From positions 4,216,001-4,280,000 of the forward strand of contig NZ_CP132938.1 in NCBI RefSeq assembly GCF_040358255.1: 64,000 nt of DNA, in the 5' to 3' direction. Below, piece by piece: positions 3,204 to 31,350 of this stretch. The notes beneath the pieces are model-generated. The model saw nothing but the letters and a program-made list of their open reading frames with translations. It was not told where the DNA came from and ran no database searches. The stretch is from Tunturibacter gelidoferens (GTDB lineage: Bacteria > Acidobacteriota > Terriglobia > Terriglobales > Acidobacteriaceae). Each line of letters starts with the position of its first letter. Within the stretch, counting starts at the first letter, position 1. Both the position numbers and the translations under genes were made by a program.

Positions 3204-3265
3204 TTGTTGTCATTCCGCAACGCATTTATTGTTGTCATTCCGCAGCGCAGCGGAGGAATCTGCTT
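3204..3265. repeat. GTCATTCC palindromic intergenic repeat, one partial and one full copy
   Basis: TTGTTGTCATTCCGCA occurs at 3204-3219 and again at 3229-3244, 25 bp apart. The second copy continues into GCGGAGGAATCTGC and can fold (ATTCC pairing with GGAAT). It matches the style of the elements at 15395 and 31271. It lies between the ligase and its regulator and is probably a REP-like dispersed hairpin. Confidence 0.6.
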
Positions 3266-3305
3266 TTGCGACCCTTTCCCAAATCACCACAACCATGACA
3301 GGTGT

Positions 3306-15380: not shown

Positions 15381-15394
15381 CACCCATTTTGTTT

Positions 15395-15416
15395 GTCATT
15401 CCCGAAGGGAATCTGC
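15395..15416. repeat. GTCATTCC-type hairpin repeat after argG
   Basis: GTCATTCCCGAAGGGAATCTGC. ATTCCC (15398-15403) pairs with GGGAAT (15407-15412) around a GAA loop. It shares GTCATTCC and the AATCTGC ending with the element at 3234-3262. It lies between argG and the GIY-YIG gene and may also help end the argG transcript. Confidence 0.6.
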
Positions 15417-15456
15417 GTTTCACCAATCAAGCCGCAGCGCCAACCGGAGAGCCACA

Positions 15457-15756
15457 GTGCCAGGACACGAATACCAGTTTTGGGTCTACATCCTCTCCAA
15501 CCGTTCACATATCCTCTACATCGGCGTCACCAACAACCTTCGCAAGAGAATCTACCAACACCGCAAACAAGCACCAAGCAGCTTCACCGCACGCTACAAA
15601 GTCCACCGGCTCGTTTACTTCGAGCGCCACCAGTACGTCAATAACGCCATTGCTCGTGAGAAGGAACTCAAGCATTGGACACGGGCACAGAAGATCGCTT
15701 TGATTGAATCGAATAACGCAACCTGGGAAGAGCTCATGCCAGAAGGACACGCATAG
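15457..15756 (+). CDS. GIY-YIG domain protein (small, YhbQ/UPF0213-like)
   Basis: 99 residues consisting of one GIY-YIG nuclease domain: WVYILSN is the GIY strand, HILYIGVTNNLRKRIYQH the YIG strand and the conserved arginine helix, and REKELKHWTRAQKIALIE the glutamate helix. The stand-alone small proteins of this family have no settled function; nuclease or repair activity is possible. The start is GTG at 15457 with GGAGAG six bases upstream. It sits 40 bp after a palindromic repeat and is followed directly by a lipoprotein gene, all inside the arg region, so the trio looks like an insertion between argG and argH. Confidence 0.88.
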   Translation: MPGHEYQFWVYILSNRSHILYIGVTNNLRKRIYQHRKQAPSSFTARYKVHRLVYFERHQYVNNAIAREKELKHWTRAQKIALIESNNATWEELMPEGHA

Positions 15757-16161
15757 ATGTCGATCAACCTGAGAGACAATCTGTGCAAGCTCTCCCTCTG
15801 TTCATTCCTCGTATTTGCACTTACTGGCTGCCGTAGCAAACGCGACATTAGTTGGTCTACCCAAGCTTATTCGTCTGACAAACACTGGCTCGCCACTGCT
15901 CACGGCGAAGCGGGCGGTAGCTTCGGCGGAGGATATGAAGCCACCATTGTTTACCTCAGTCAGGCCGAGCAACAGCCAGTCGAAATTCTCGAATTTGATC
16001 GCTTATTATCTAAATCAAGTCTTCACCTTAATTGGGCAGGCCCGAGATACTTGGCAGTTGTGATTGATCCAGGAACAGATCCAATCAACTCAACCGAAGT
16101 ACATTTTCAAGCCATTAAGTGTGGGGATGTCACGATCACTTTAGAGCCTATGCCTCATTAG
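15757..16161 (+). CDS. Putative lipoprotein, unknown function
   Basis: 134 residues. The N-terminus has a charged start, a hydrophobic stretch (LCSFLVFALTGC) and a lipobox LTGC with cysteine near residue 25, so it should be lipidated and anchored in a membrane. The remainder has no family that I recognise. The ATG follows the GIY-YIG stop after one base, suggesting cotranscription. Codon use is less GC-rich than that of argG and argH on either side, which supports separate acquisition. Confidence 0.7.
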   Translation: MSINLRDNLCKLSLCSFLVFALTGCRSKRDISWSTQAYSSDKHWLATAHGEAGGSFGGGYEATIVYLSQAEQQPVEILEFDRLLSKSSLHLNWAGPRYLAVVIDPGTDPINSTEVHFQAIKCGDVTITLEPMPH

Positions 16162-16196
16162 AATCCATCACCGACCCAATAGGGATAGAACACACG

Positions 16197-17615
16197 ATGA
16201 CTGATCAATCCGCAAAAATGTGGTCCGGCCGCTTCCGCGAACCACTCGACGCCACCTTCGAATCGTGGCAGCGCTCCTTCCCCTTCGACTGGCGCCTGGT
16301 CCCCTACGAAGTCGAAGCCAGCATAGCCCACGCCCGCGCCATCGAAGCCGCAGGCATCCTCACCAGCGAAGAGCTCCTGCAAATGGAAGAAGGCCTCCGC
16401 GCCGTAGCCAAGCAGCAAGCCGAACAAGGCGAAGCCATCGTCACCGCCAACCCCCAGGCCGAAGACGTCCACCACTACGTCGAACTCGAACTCACCAAAC
16501 AAATCGGCGACCTCGCCCTCAAGCTCCACACCGGCCGCAGCCGCAACGAGCAGATCGCCACCGACATGCGCCTCTTCGTCCGCGAAGCCATCGACAACAC
16601 CCTCGCTGGCCTCACCGCATGGCGAAAAGCCCTCATCGACCTAGCCGAATCCGCAGGCGAAGCCACCATGCCCTCGTACACCCACCTCCAGCGCGCCGAA
16701 CCCGTCCTCGTAGCCCACTGGCTCCTAGCCTATGTAACGATGATCGAGCGCGACGCCAGCCGACTCACGGACGCCCGCAAGCGCATGAACCTCTGCCCCC
16801 TCGGCTCCGGCGCAGTAGCAGGCGCAACCCTCACCCTCGACCGCACCATCGCCGCCCGCGCCCTCAACTTCGACGCCCCCACCCCCAACAGCATGGACGC
16901 AACCAGCGACCGCGACTTCGCCCTCGAATTCACCCAAGCCATCGCCACTCTAGGCATCCACATCTCCCGCTTCGCCGAAGAACTAACCCTCTACTCAACA
17001 GCCGAGTTCGGCTTCCTAGACCTCCCCGAACGCTTCTCCACCGGCTCAAGCGCCATGCCGCAAAAGAAGAACCCTGACCTCACCGAACTCATCCGCGGCA
17101 AATCCGGACGCCTCCTAGGCGCAGCCACAACACTAGCCACACTCATCAAAGGCCTACCCCTCGCCTACAACAAAGACCTTCAAGAAGGCCAGGAGCCAGT
17201 CTTCGACGCAGCCGACACCATCGCCGGCATCCTAAGCGTTCTCCCAGCCTTCACCGCCTCCCTCAAGTTCCGCTACGACATCATGAAGACCGCCGCCCAC
17301 TCCGGCTACCTCAACGCCATGGCCGCCGCCACCTACCTCACCGACAAAGGCATCCCCTTCCGCAAGGCCCACGAGCACATCGGCAACGCCGTCCGCCTAG
17401 CGATGGGAGACGGGGGCCTCGAAACCCACCGCGAACTCCAGCAATTAACCCTCGAAGAACTCCGCACCATCTGCCCCCAGTTCGGCGAAGACTTCTTCTC
17501 AGCCATCACCCTCGAAGCCACCCTCGACTGCCACGACGTAATCGGAGGCACCGCCCGTCCCCGCGTCGCCACAGCCCTCGCTGAAGCCAAGGTCCGTCTC
17601 ACGGAGCACGCGTGA
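16197..17615 (+). CDS. argH: Argininosuccinate lyase
   Basis: 472 residues, normal length. It splits argininosuccinate to arginine and fumarate, the last step of the pathway. MWSGRF near the N-terminus, HTGRSRNEQIATD, the TYTHLQ-equivalent SYTHLQRAEPV, and the fumarase/aspartase signature GSSAMPQKKNPD (with the catalytic serine) are all present. The frame is open back to 16119, but the ATG at 16197 gives the family N-terminus and has AGGGA upstream; the longer form would run into the lipoprotein gene. Confidence 0.96.
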   Translation: MTDQSAKMWSGRFREPLDATFESWQRSFPFDWRLVPYEVEASIAHARAIEAAGILTSEELLQMEEGLRAVAKQQAEQGEAIVTANPQAEDVHHYVELELTKQIGDLALKLHTGRSRNEQIATDMRLFVREAIDNTLAGLTAWRKALIDLAESAGEATMPSYTHLQRAEPVLVAHWLLAYVTMIERDASRLTDARKRMNLCPLGSGAVAGATLTLDRTIAARALNFDAPTPNSMDATSDRDFALEFTQAIATLGIHISRFAEELTLYSTAEFGFLDLPERFSTGSSAMPQKKNPDLTELIRGKSGRLLGAATTLATLIKGLPLAYNKDLQEGQEPVFDAADTIAGILSVLPAFTASLKFRYDIMKTAAHSGYLNAMAAATYLTDKGIPFRKAHEHIGNAVRLAMGDGGLETHRELQQLTLEELRTICPQFGEDFFSAITLEATLDCHDVIGGTARPRVATALAEAKVRLTEHA

Positions 17616-17642
17616 CGACAAAGCCGGTTCAATCTCTCGCAT

Positions 17643-17868
17643 CCCCAAAGATTCGTCATCTCGACCGAAGCGATAGACAGTTCCATCGTCTATCGCGCAG
17701 TGGAGAGACCCCCGTATTTCGTCTGTTGCCGCTGCGAATGCCCACTCATGCAGTCTCATCCAATCCCGCTTCCCCAAAGATTCGTCATCTCGACCGAAGC
17801 AATAGACAGTTCCATCGTCTATTGCGTAGTGGAGAGACCCCCGTATTTCGTCTGTTGCCGTTGCGAAC
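17643..17868. repeat. Two tandem copies (129-bp period) of a hairpin element
   Basis: Copy 1 runs from about 17643 to 17739 and copy 2 from 17772 to 17868, both starting CCCCAAAGATTCGTCATC and ending near GTCTGTTGCCG. Each contains a 9-bp stem with a 9-base loop: GCGATAGAC/GTCTATCGC (17670-17678, 17688-17696) and GCAATAGAC/GTCTATTGC (17799-17807, 17817-17825). The third stem base differs between copies but pairing is kept. The element shares CGTCATC and CCCCGTATTT with the repeat at 31271. The rest of 17616-18000 shows only AAGGAG at 17985-17990 for the next gene. Confidence 0.75.
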
Positions 17869-18000
17869 GCTACTTACCCAGTCTCACCGCATGAGTGAGC
17901 ATTCGCGCCACACGCGAACCGCACTCTTCAACCCCCGCACCAAACCGAATCATCAAATCATCCAATACTCTGCGAAAATAAAGTAAGGAGCTAAACGCAG

Positions 18001-18624
18001 TTGCCCACTACCCCCTTGATGACCGTGAGTGAATCCACCTCCTCATCCCGCCTCCGCGTAGGCGGCGCAACCGTGCGCAAGGCCAAGCTCCCTGACGCCG
18101 TCAACATCTTCGATCTCGTCAACTCCCTCTCCGGCGACGGCACCCTCCTCCGCCGCAACTACGCCGAGATCTGCGAGAACATCCGCGACTTCGCCGTAGC
18201 CGAATCCCCCGTCGATGGAGACTCAGGCGGCGTCTTCCTCGGCTGCGGAGCACTCCACCTCTACGGCCCCCACCTCGCCGAAGTCCGCTCCATCGTCGTC
18301 AAGCCCGAAGCCAAGGGCCAGGGCGCAGGGGGCCGTCTCCTCCGCGCCCTCCTTGAAGAAGCCGAAGAGCAAAAGGTCACCGCCGTCTGCCTCTTCACCC
18401 GCATCCCCGACTTCTTCTTCCACTTCGGCTTCCGCGTAGTCGACCGCACCACCCTGCCCGACAAGATCTACAAGGACTGCCAGACCTGCCCGCGCCTCTA
18501 CGCCTGCGACGAGGTAGCCATGGTCCGCGGCCCCCTACCCAAAATCGCGGTCCTCGGCCCATCACGCATAGCCCAGCCAGAACTAGTCAAGCTCCAAACC
18601 GGCGTAATCCCCCAAGCAGACTAA
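18001..18624 (+). CDS. argA: Short N-acetylglutamate synthase (GNAT type)
   Basis: 207 residues: a GNAT acetyltransferase without the amino-acid kinase half of classical ArgA. VRKAKLPDAVNIFDLVN, FLGCGALHLYGPHLAEVRSI and VKPEAKGQGAGGRLL (acetyl-CoA loop) match the stand-alone synthases known from Mycobacterium and other bacteria. It would acetylate glutamate, the first step of arginine synthesis. KDCQTCPRLYACDE is a cysteine cluster also common in this subgroup. The start is TTG at 18001 with AAGGAG ten bases before; an in-frame ATG lies at 18019. Position just after argH supports the role. Confidence 0.85.
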   Translation: MPTTPLMTVSESTSSSRLRVGGATVRKAKLPDAVNIFDLVNSLSGDGTLLRRNYAEICENIRDFAVAESPVDGDSGGVFLGCGALHLYGPHLAEVRSIVVKPEAKGQGAGGRLLRALLEEAEEQKVTAVCLFTRIPDFFFHFGFRVVDRTTLPDKIYKDCQTCPRLYACDEVAMVRGPLPKIAVLGPSRIAQPELVKLQTGVIPQAD

Positions 18625-31270: not shown

Positions 31271-31350
31271 GTCGTCATCCTGAGCGGAGCGAAGGATCCC
31301 CGTATTTTGTCCTCGCGGATCCATCCGTTCACCTGTCGCAAGATGACGAC
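31271..31350. repeat. 80-bp GTCATCC palindromic element
   Basis: Bounded by GTCGTCATC (31271-31279) and GATGACGAC (31342-31350), exact inverted repeats. Inside are CTGAGCGGAGCGAAGGATCC, where ATCC can pair with GGAT, and CCCCGTATTTTGTC, shared in form with the repeats at 17643-17868. Lies between the DAHP synthase and DUF1080 genes. REP-like dispersed element by appearance. Confidence 0.6.

Follow-up and report, generated by a model that had tools for sequence, protein, structure and literature searches.

The repeats most similar to those analysed here are the CGTC-REPs, described by Di Nocera et al. (2013; PMC3733652) as having a CGTC, TGTC or CCTC tag, a stem of 8-9 bp that opens with AT, a loop of 4-5 nt and a CCA-like tail. 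In the sections of that paper used here, the CGTC-REPs include neisserial dRS3, are dispersed and mostly intergenic, and form subfamilies with complementary stem changes. In the same sections, the repeats are listed for five phyla, from which Acidobacteria are absent, no partner gene is reported, and the authors report no association with transposase genes while leaving the question open. Hairpin ends and a strand preference at replication forks have been described for the IS200/IS605 elements (sections of PMC6006769).

Two hairpins of a similar kind follow argH in the window, the 64,000-nucleotide stretch of Tunturibacter gelidoferens DNA that was analysed, which belongs to a 5.58-Mb genome in two contigs. 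Comparison of the aligned copies, both on the plus strand, placed them at 17643-17739 and 17772-17868, in agreement with the original prediction of two 97-bp copies with a period of 129 bp. Copy 1 comprises a GTCAT tag (17655), an outer stem (17659-17662 paired with 17705-17708), a nested inner stem (17670-17678 with 17688-17696), a loop (17679-17687) and a tail (17709-17723). The corresponding elements of copy 2 are the tag at 17784, the outer stem at 17788-17791 with 17834-17837, the inner stem at 17799-17807 with 17817-17825, the loop at 17808-17816 and the tail at 17838-17852. The copies differ at five bases over 97 bp, namely at stem position 3 in both arms, at one base directly past the stem and at two bases toward the 3' end. 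The third pair of the 9-bp inner stem is G-C in copy 1 and A-T in copy 2, and the 9-nt loop is identical in both, as had been predicted. In a simulation of five random substitutions in 97 bp, a compensated stem pair arose with a probability of 0.0064. DNA-folding z-scores were -2.96 and -2.45 for the plus strand, and -1.12 and -1.57 for the minus strand. The tail CCCCCGTATTTCGTC has four exact occurrences in the genome, two of them in this pair; its suspected similarity to a repeat at 31271 was also correct. The repeat there is of a different type but the same kind, and it shares the CCCCGTATTT tail.

At the corresponding site past argH, a second genome of the species (G073) has two copies, and G091 has a single copy with the A-T stem; no copies were found in the 420 bp read at this site in G088, G061 and G084. 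The two window copies therefore represent a local tandem duplication, either whole or in remnant form, inside one lineage, and the paired change between G-C and A-T may have gone either way. Elsewhere in the same genome, three tandem copies with a period of about 109 bp are found at 4304699-4304994, where G073 (C2, 629645-629856) has one, a difference that represents a recent tandem gain or loss.

The hairpins share with the CGTC-REPs, as these are presented in the sections of PMC3733652 used here, the CGTC or TGTC end tag, dispersal, a mostly intergenic location and complementary stem changes among subfamilies. The unpaired CGTC or TGTC tag precedes the stem in nearly all of the 37 copies aligned below (one row, L055, has CTC instead of GTC). 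Unlike the CGTC-REPs of that description, the window type nests a variable 9-bp hairpin within an outer stem of 4 bp, with a 9-nt loop and a CCCC tail, and it does not match the stem, loop and tail of CGTC families 1-4. Because the nested variable hairpin, the 9-nt loop and the CCCC tail differ from these four families, the window hairpins are classified as CGTC-REP-like and are assigned to none of them. Three shorter types (CCT, TTCC and TTCCC) combine the CGTC-REP tag and AT start with shorter stems. The AT at stem positions 1-2 is complementary in the CCT and TTCCC types; in the window type the T pairs and the A faces C. All three short types are represented on the plus strand of the window: a CCT-type repeat, identified by pattern match, at 31274-31308; a TTCC-type repeat at 3234-3269, with a partial copy ahead of it at 3209; and a TTCCC-type repeat at 15395-15419. 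The CCT type has 32 pattern matches in the genome (control, 0). The hairpins are not GTAG REPs with a RAYT, the tag being CGTC or TGTC and the sole Y1 gene of the genome lying beside another repeat.

At a cut-off of E = 10, BLAST gave 45 matches in the genome, of which 43 had an E value below 1e-7; a strict pattern gave 27 (reversed control, 0), and a covariance model gave at least 112 matches, including related types. In the 37 aligned copies, little variation is seen in the tag, the outer stem, the proximal tail and most of the loop. The inner 9-bp stem is highly diverse, yet 98.0% of the 550 cells are paired. Two-sided changes occur at 10 of the 15 pairs, and none of 500 shuffles matched this pairing. 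Unpaired changes are far from being as frequent as paired ones, with 97 two-sided, 5 wobble and 11 unpaired cells among the 550. A second alignment, of 96 distinct rows drawn from genomes of the genus, this one included, was fitted to the model and so leans toward it. In these rows the outer stem covaries as well: at three pairs, both sides changed in 14, 31 and 19 rows. The CC/GG pairs enclosed by the outer stem received no support in the 96 rows, being unpaired in 19 rows each. Thus, base pairing matters across copies, a conclusion that is strongly supported. A comparison of two strains of one species initially yielded 26 pairs of copies, or 25 after removal of one duplicate; since three of these represent one tandem site, 23 sites were compared. 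The stems were identical at 19 of these sites and differed on one side at four, and no two-sided difference was seen. The original claim that folding is under selection is only partly supported: the pairing kept across copies, in both the 37 and the 96 rows, agrees with it, and the resident copies do not lend it support. On these small numbers, the constraint seems to act during the spread of copies and not on resident copies, which seem to drift.

A small nuclease gene accompanies the repeats. The genome has four matches to the GIY-YIG profile PF01541, one in a long uvrC-type frame and three in solo genes. One solo gene, encoding 99 aa, is located in the window (15457-15756, plus strand; PF01541 E = 1.2e-14). 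The match is above the curated cut-off and the motif residues are conserved: Y8, Y18, G20, R28, E66 and N85, which we take to be the catalytic residues, are identical in all 22 of the aligned proteins. The three solo genes each adjoin a different type of repeat. The L064 gene is bracketed by two CTC-type copies whose stems are identical and the L066 gene by two CCT-type copies; the window gene follows the TTCCC copy at 15395-15419, which forms the 5' end of its unit and has no matching downstream end left in the genome.

A survey of 60 genomes of the family, 58 of which have some PF01541 match, extended this association. Scanning of 113 loci (solo and uvrC) gave 75 solo matches and one long-frame match; several other matches, which had long frames or lay close to a contig edge, were left out of the family set, as were five PF01541 loci (L111, L140, L143, L145 and L147) that did not match a three-sequence profile. 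The 75 solo loci were compared with the 28 of 32 uvrC control loci that have usable flanks. Direct repeats between the two flanks (score at least 20) were found at 36/75 solo loci, 0/28 uvrC loci and 5/297 permuted flanks, and inverted repeats at 28/75, 0/28 and 6/297, respectively. Because the motif searched for (GTCAT with four stem bases that match, followed by T or C) also turns up by chance, shuffled controls were used; the motif was present within 300 bp at 59/75 solo loci, 2/28 uvrC loci and 23/375 shuffled sequences. Most of these solo loci belong to the clade whose proteins end in N-(P/S/A)-x-x-x-D-L, where 52 of 59 loci have the motif (Fisher p = 1e-13 against uvrC) and seven have no repeat inside 300 bp; other solo loci have it in 7 of 16 cases. 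By one further method, the counts were 16/23 for GIY-YIG genes, 0/27 for Y1 transposase genes and 6/28 for argH. A RAYT was rejected as the mobiliser, because the single Y1 gene of this genome adjoins a different repeat and none of 27 Y1 genes in relatives has the motif within 300 bp. That only Y1 transposase gene is situated between palindromic repeats, CCCACATCTC...GAGATATGGG (L005, 1801-1870 and 440-530), and a similar repeat also occurs after argH in G088 and G091. At L081, L084 and L095, solo GIY-YIG genes that belong to another subfamily directly follow a tRNA-Val gene, whose 3' end is repeated on the far side of the GIY-YIG gene; these are perhaps a separate type of element that uses tRNA genes.

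A GTDB protein scan took the arrangement beyond the family. The titles of the best 80 of at least 576 relatives included Acidobacteria, Planctomycetes, Bacteroidetes, Ignavibacteria, Chloroflexi, Proteobacteria, Clostridia, Cloacimonadota, Atribacteria, Kiritimatiellae and candidate phyla. Eleven of these 80 lacked 200 bp on both sides, which left 69 loci. Among these, the motif was present within 350 bp at 61 loci and on both sides at 42 (shuffled, 36/345 and 1/345); eight loci had no repeat inside 350 bp. Motif density was 6.1 and 6.5 per kb on the two sides within 150 bp of the gene and 0.29-0.65 past 600 bp. Within 150 bp, the upstream repeat runs along the gene strand in 49 of 71 cases and the downstream repeat against it in 53 of 76, and inverted (upstream plus, downstream minus) is the commonest layout of the locus (25/44 GTDB loci and 20/40 family loci). 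The ends also match in type: the nearest repeats on both sides have the same first five stem bases at 30/40 family loci, where permutations gave 11.9 on average and 21 at most, and at 26/44 GTDB loci, where they gave 6.9 on average and 16 at most; the closest protein has the same repeat type in 27/59 family cases (expected 14.4) and 23/67 GTDB cases (expected 10.0), all four comparisons ignoring host relatedness. By eye, 19 of 30 loci of the genus have same-type repeats on both sides, and classical CGTC-1 repeats flank the GIY-YIG genes at L213, L230 and L244. Seven loci, two of which (L366 and L384) are the same site of a single genome, were aligned end to end and gave units of 392-473 bp. 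L400, L370, L366/L384 and L182 have inverted ends about 27-34 bp long, and L362 and L251 have longer imperfect end matches; L251 is titled Rudaea and the others are acidobacterial. A simple-sequence TTGY tail past the repeats was rejected, as TTGY was not significantly enriched downstream (2.16 per 100 nt, against 1.57 upstream; p = 0.16).

The window unit is present in some strains and absent from others. Among eight argG-argH gaps read, a TTCCC-type GIY-YIG gene occurs in five (this genome, G091, G061, G082 and G080); the other three (G088, G084 and G073) contain other sequence instead. The whole unit is thus missing from a genome of the same species, G073. The gap in G084 contains two REPs and no GIY-YIG gene. 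Neither movement, excision nor cutting was seen in the analysis, and neither a clean empty site nor a target duplication was found. In the window, the gap (15381-16190) also contains a small lipoprotein-like gene, and other strains have different genes there. Across genomes, copy number correlates with gene number (rho = 0.55 in 41 genomes, with kinship ignored and with counts near 118 being lower bounds, since at most 118 candidates per genome were scored with the covariance model). Eight genomes at least 90% complete lack the solo nuclease; the covariance model matches nothing in three of them and 15, 36, 37, 52 and 78 sequences in the other five. The matches in these eight do not differ significantly from those in the 25 genomes with the nuclease (p = 0.12; p = 0.025 for all 41 genomes). 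Repeats may outlive their nuclease, or other movers may act.

The repeats are also strongly oriented with respect to base composition. GC skew in this genome reaches about 0.3 per 20 kb, with many sign changes along the genome; skew blocks are visible, for instance, at 4.06-4.46 Mb (L288-L307), a region that includes the window. Tests based on ORFs gave ambiguous answers on whether gene orientation causes the skew, but in the window two genes encoded on the minus strand have the same C-rich plus strand, so gene orientation was rejected and the skew is taken as regional. In 400 kb, all 34 motif matches, two of them probably due to chance, have GTCAT on the C-rich strand. The same holds for 51/52 matches in other loci of this genome, 69/71 in G073 (largely the same sites), 44/46 in 28 loci of the genus, 51/67 in its GIY-YIG loci and 23/26 in its argH loci. 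Family GIY-YIG loci gave 73/119 and GTDB loci, where skew is weak, 87/161; mean absolute skew is about 0.23-0.27 in the loci of this genome and genus and 0.05 in those of the family. The strand bias is, therefore, near complete in the genus and not seen in the wider sets, and it would fit movement via one strand of replicating DNA.

We consider it probable that the hairpins are CGTC-REP-like mobile DNA served by a clade of solo GIY-YIG nucleases, whose units are bounded by the same repeats. The link to the GIY-YIG genes is established by position and by matching ends, and the mechanism suggested by these would be as follows. The repeats would be short non-autonomous mobile DNA that is recognised in folded form, so that the tag and flanks are conserved and the inner stem sequence is free provided that pairing holds. 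The cognate enzyme would be the solo clade of about 100 aa, whose gene occupies a unit some 390-470 bp long with the same repeats at its ends; the enzyme would nick or cut the hairpin, in a single strand or a cruciform, and thereby spread the repeats. Pairing would be enforced when a copy moves, and settled copies would then drift.

It is very unlikely that the hairpins work in RNA, within the 3' UTR of the gene that precedes them. Such a role would agree with the position of 28 of 36 copies of this genome downstream of a gene in the sense orientation (p = 0.0012; median distance to the ORF end, 74.5 bp), but orientation tracks the C-rich strand more closely (51/52), and resident copies tolerate one-sided changes in their stems. 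One-sided transitions produce G-T or A-C cells, and selection on a single RNA strand should leave an excess of G-T; G-T and A-C cells numbered 5 and 8 in the 37 copies and 12 and 11 in the 96 distinct rows. Because G-T cells are not in excess, DNA pairing fits the hairpins better than RNA. Of the two options in the original prediction, folding as RNA or as single-stranded DNA, folding as DNA is thus the better fit and folding as RNA is not supported. A search of positions 17000-18600 with the Rfam covariance models likewise found nothing at E values of 1 or below. A purely mutational origin of the covariation, in which template switching in the hairpin copies one arm onto the other and selection is unnecessary, would account for the predominance of two-sided cells (97) over intermediates (16). 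We regard it as improbable, however, given that all four stem changes between strains are one-sided and uncorrected and that template switching leaves the constant flanks and loop beside a variable stem unexplained.

Two further alternatives concern the nuclease gene. The repeats could be landing sites or homology arms for a homing-like GIY-YIG gene, which cuts them and is copied by repair without spreading them. The same association of gene and repeat would then be expected, and in two units of this genome the ends do point the same way, an outcome that recombination between repeats could produce. The inverted layout, which is the commonest, and the matching types of the ends are rather those of a unit with its own ends, and the spread of the repeats would be left without an explanation, so that we regard this possibility as unlikely, though less so than an RNA role or template switching. 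Simple co-residence, with GIY-YIG genes and repeats both gathering in variable intergenic regions, finds some support in the differing contents of the argG-argH gap among strains, but it hardly deserves credence: end types match far above permutation, repeat density drops steeply with distance from the gene, and Y1 transposase genes, which are also of a mobile type, lack the repeats nearby (0/27).

In view of these comparisons, mobile DNA moved by a solo GIY-YIG nuclease remains our preferred interpretation, and the placement of small solo GIY-YIG genes between CGTC-REP-like repeats is the new observation. In the open-access literature, preprints excluded, no paper linking GIY-YIG to REPs was found among those listed, nor any that combines GIY-YIG with dRS3, CGTC REPs, extragenic palindromic repeats or UPF0213. 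The only solved structures matching the clade profile are the UPF0213 solo GIY-YIG proteins 1zg2 (E = 1.7e-10) and 1ywl (E = 9.5e-7), and we know of no association of UPF0213 proteins with repeats. Among eukaryotic mobile elements, the Penelope-like retroelements combine a GIY-YIG nuclease with a reverse transcriptase. The units described here are different, with space for a single gene about 100 codons long. A nuclease gene flanked by type-matched repeats is a concrete candidate for the missing partner of the CGTC-REPs, and covariation in a DNA repeat can be read as selection during spread instead of an RNA role. A broader proposal, for and against which the balance appears to us even, is that of a new class of minimal mobile elements found in many phyla, about 400 bp long, with one GIY-YIG gene between hairpin ends. 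The CGTC-REPs would be their non-autonomous offspring, moved strand-specifically as DNA, with the competence to fold checked at each move and the stem free to change. Similar hairpin ends and a strand preference at the fork are known from IS200/IS605 (sections of PMC6006769), although the enzyme there is a different one and the strand preference here is a correlation with GC skew only. The closest parallel is the RAYT/TnpA-REP system with GTAG REPs, in which, as presented in the sections of PMC3733652 used here, a small nuclease gene is likewise flanked by repeats that it is thought to mobilise. The RAYT enzyme is a Y1 HUH transposase and the one described here a GIY-YIG nuclease; if the proposed role is correct, an unrelated enzyme fold joins the known arrangement of REPs and nuclease.
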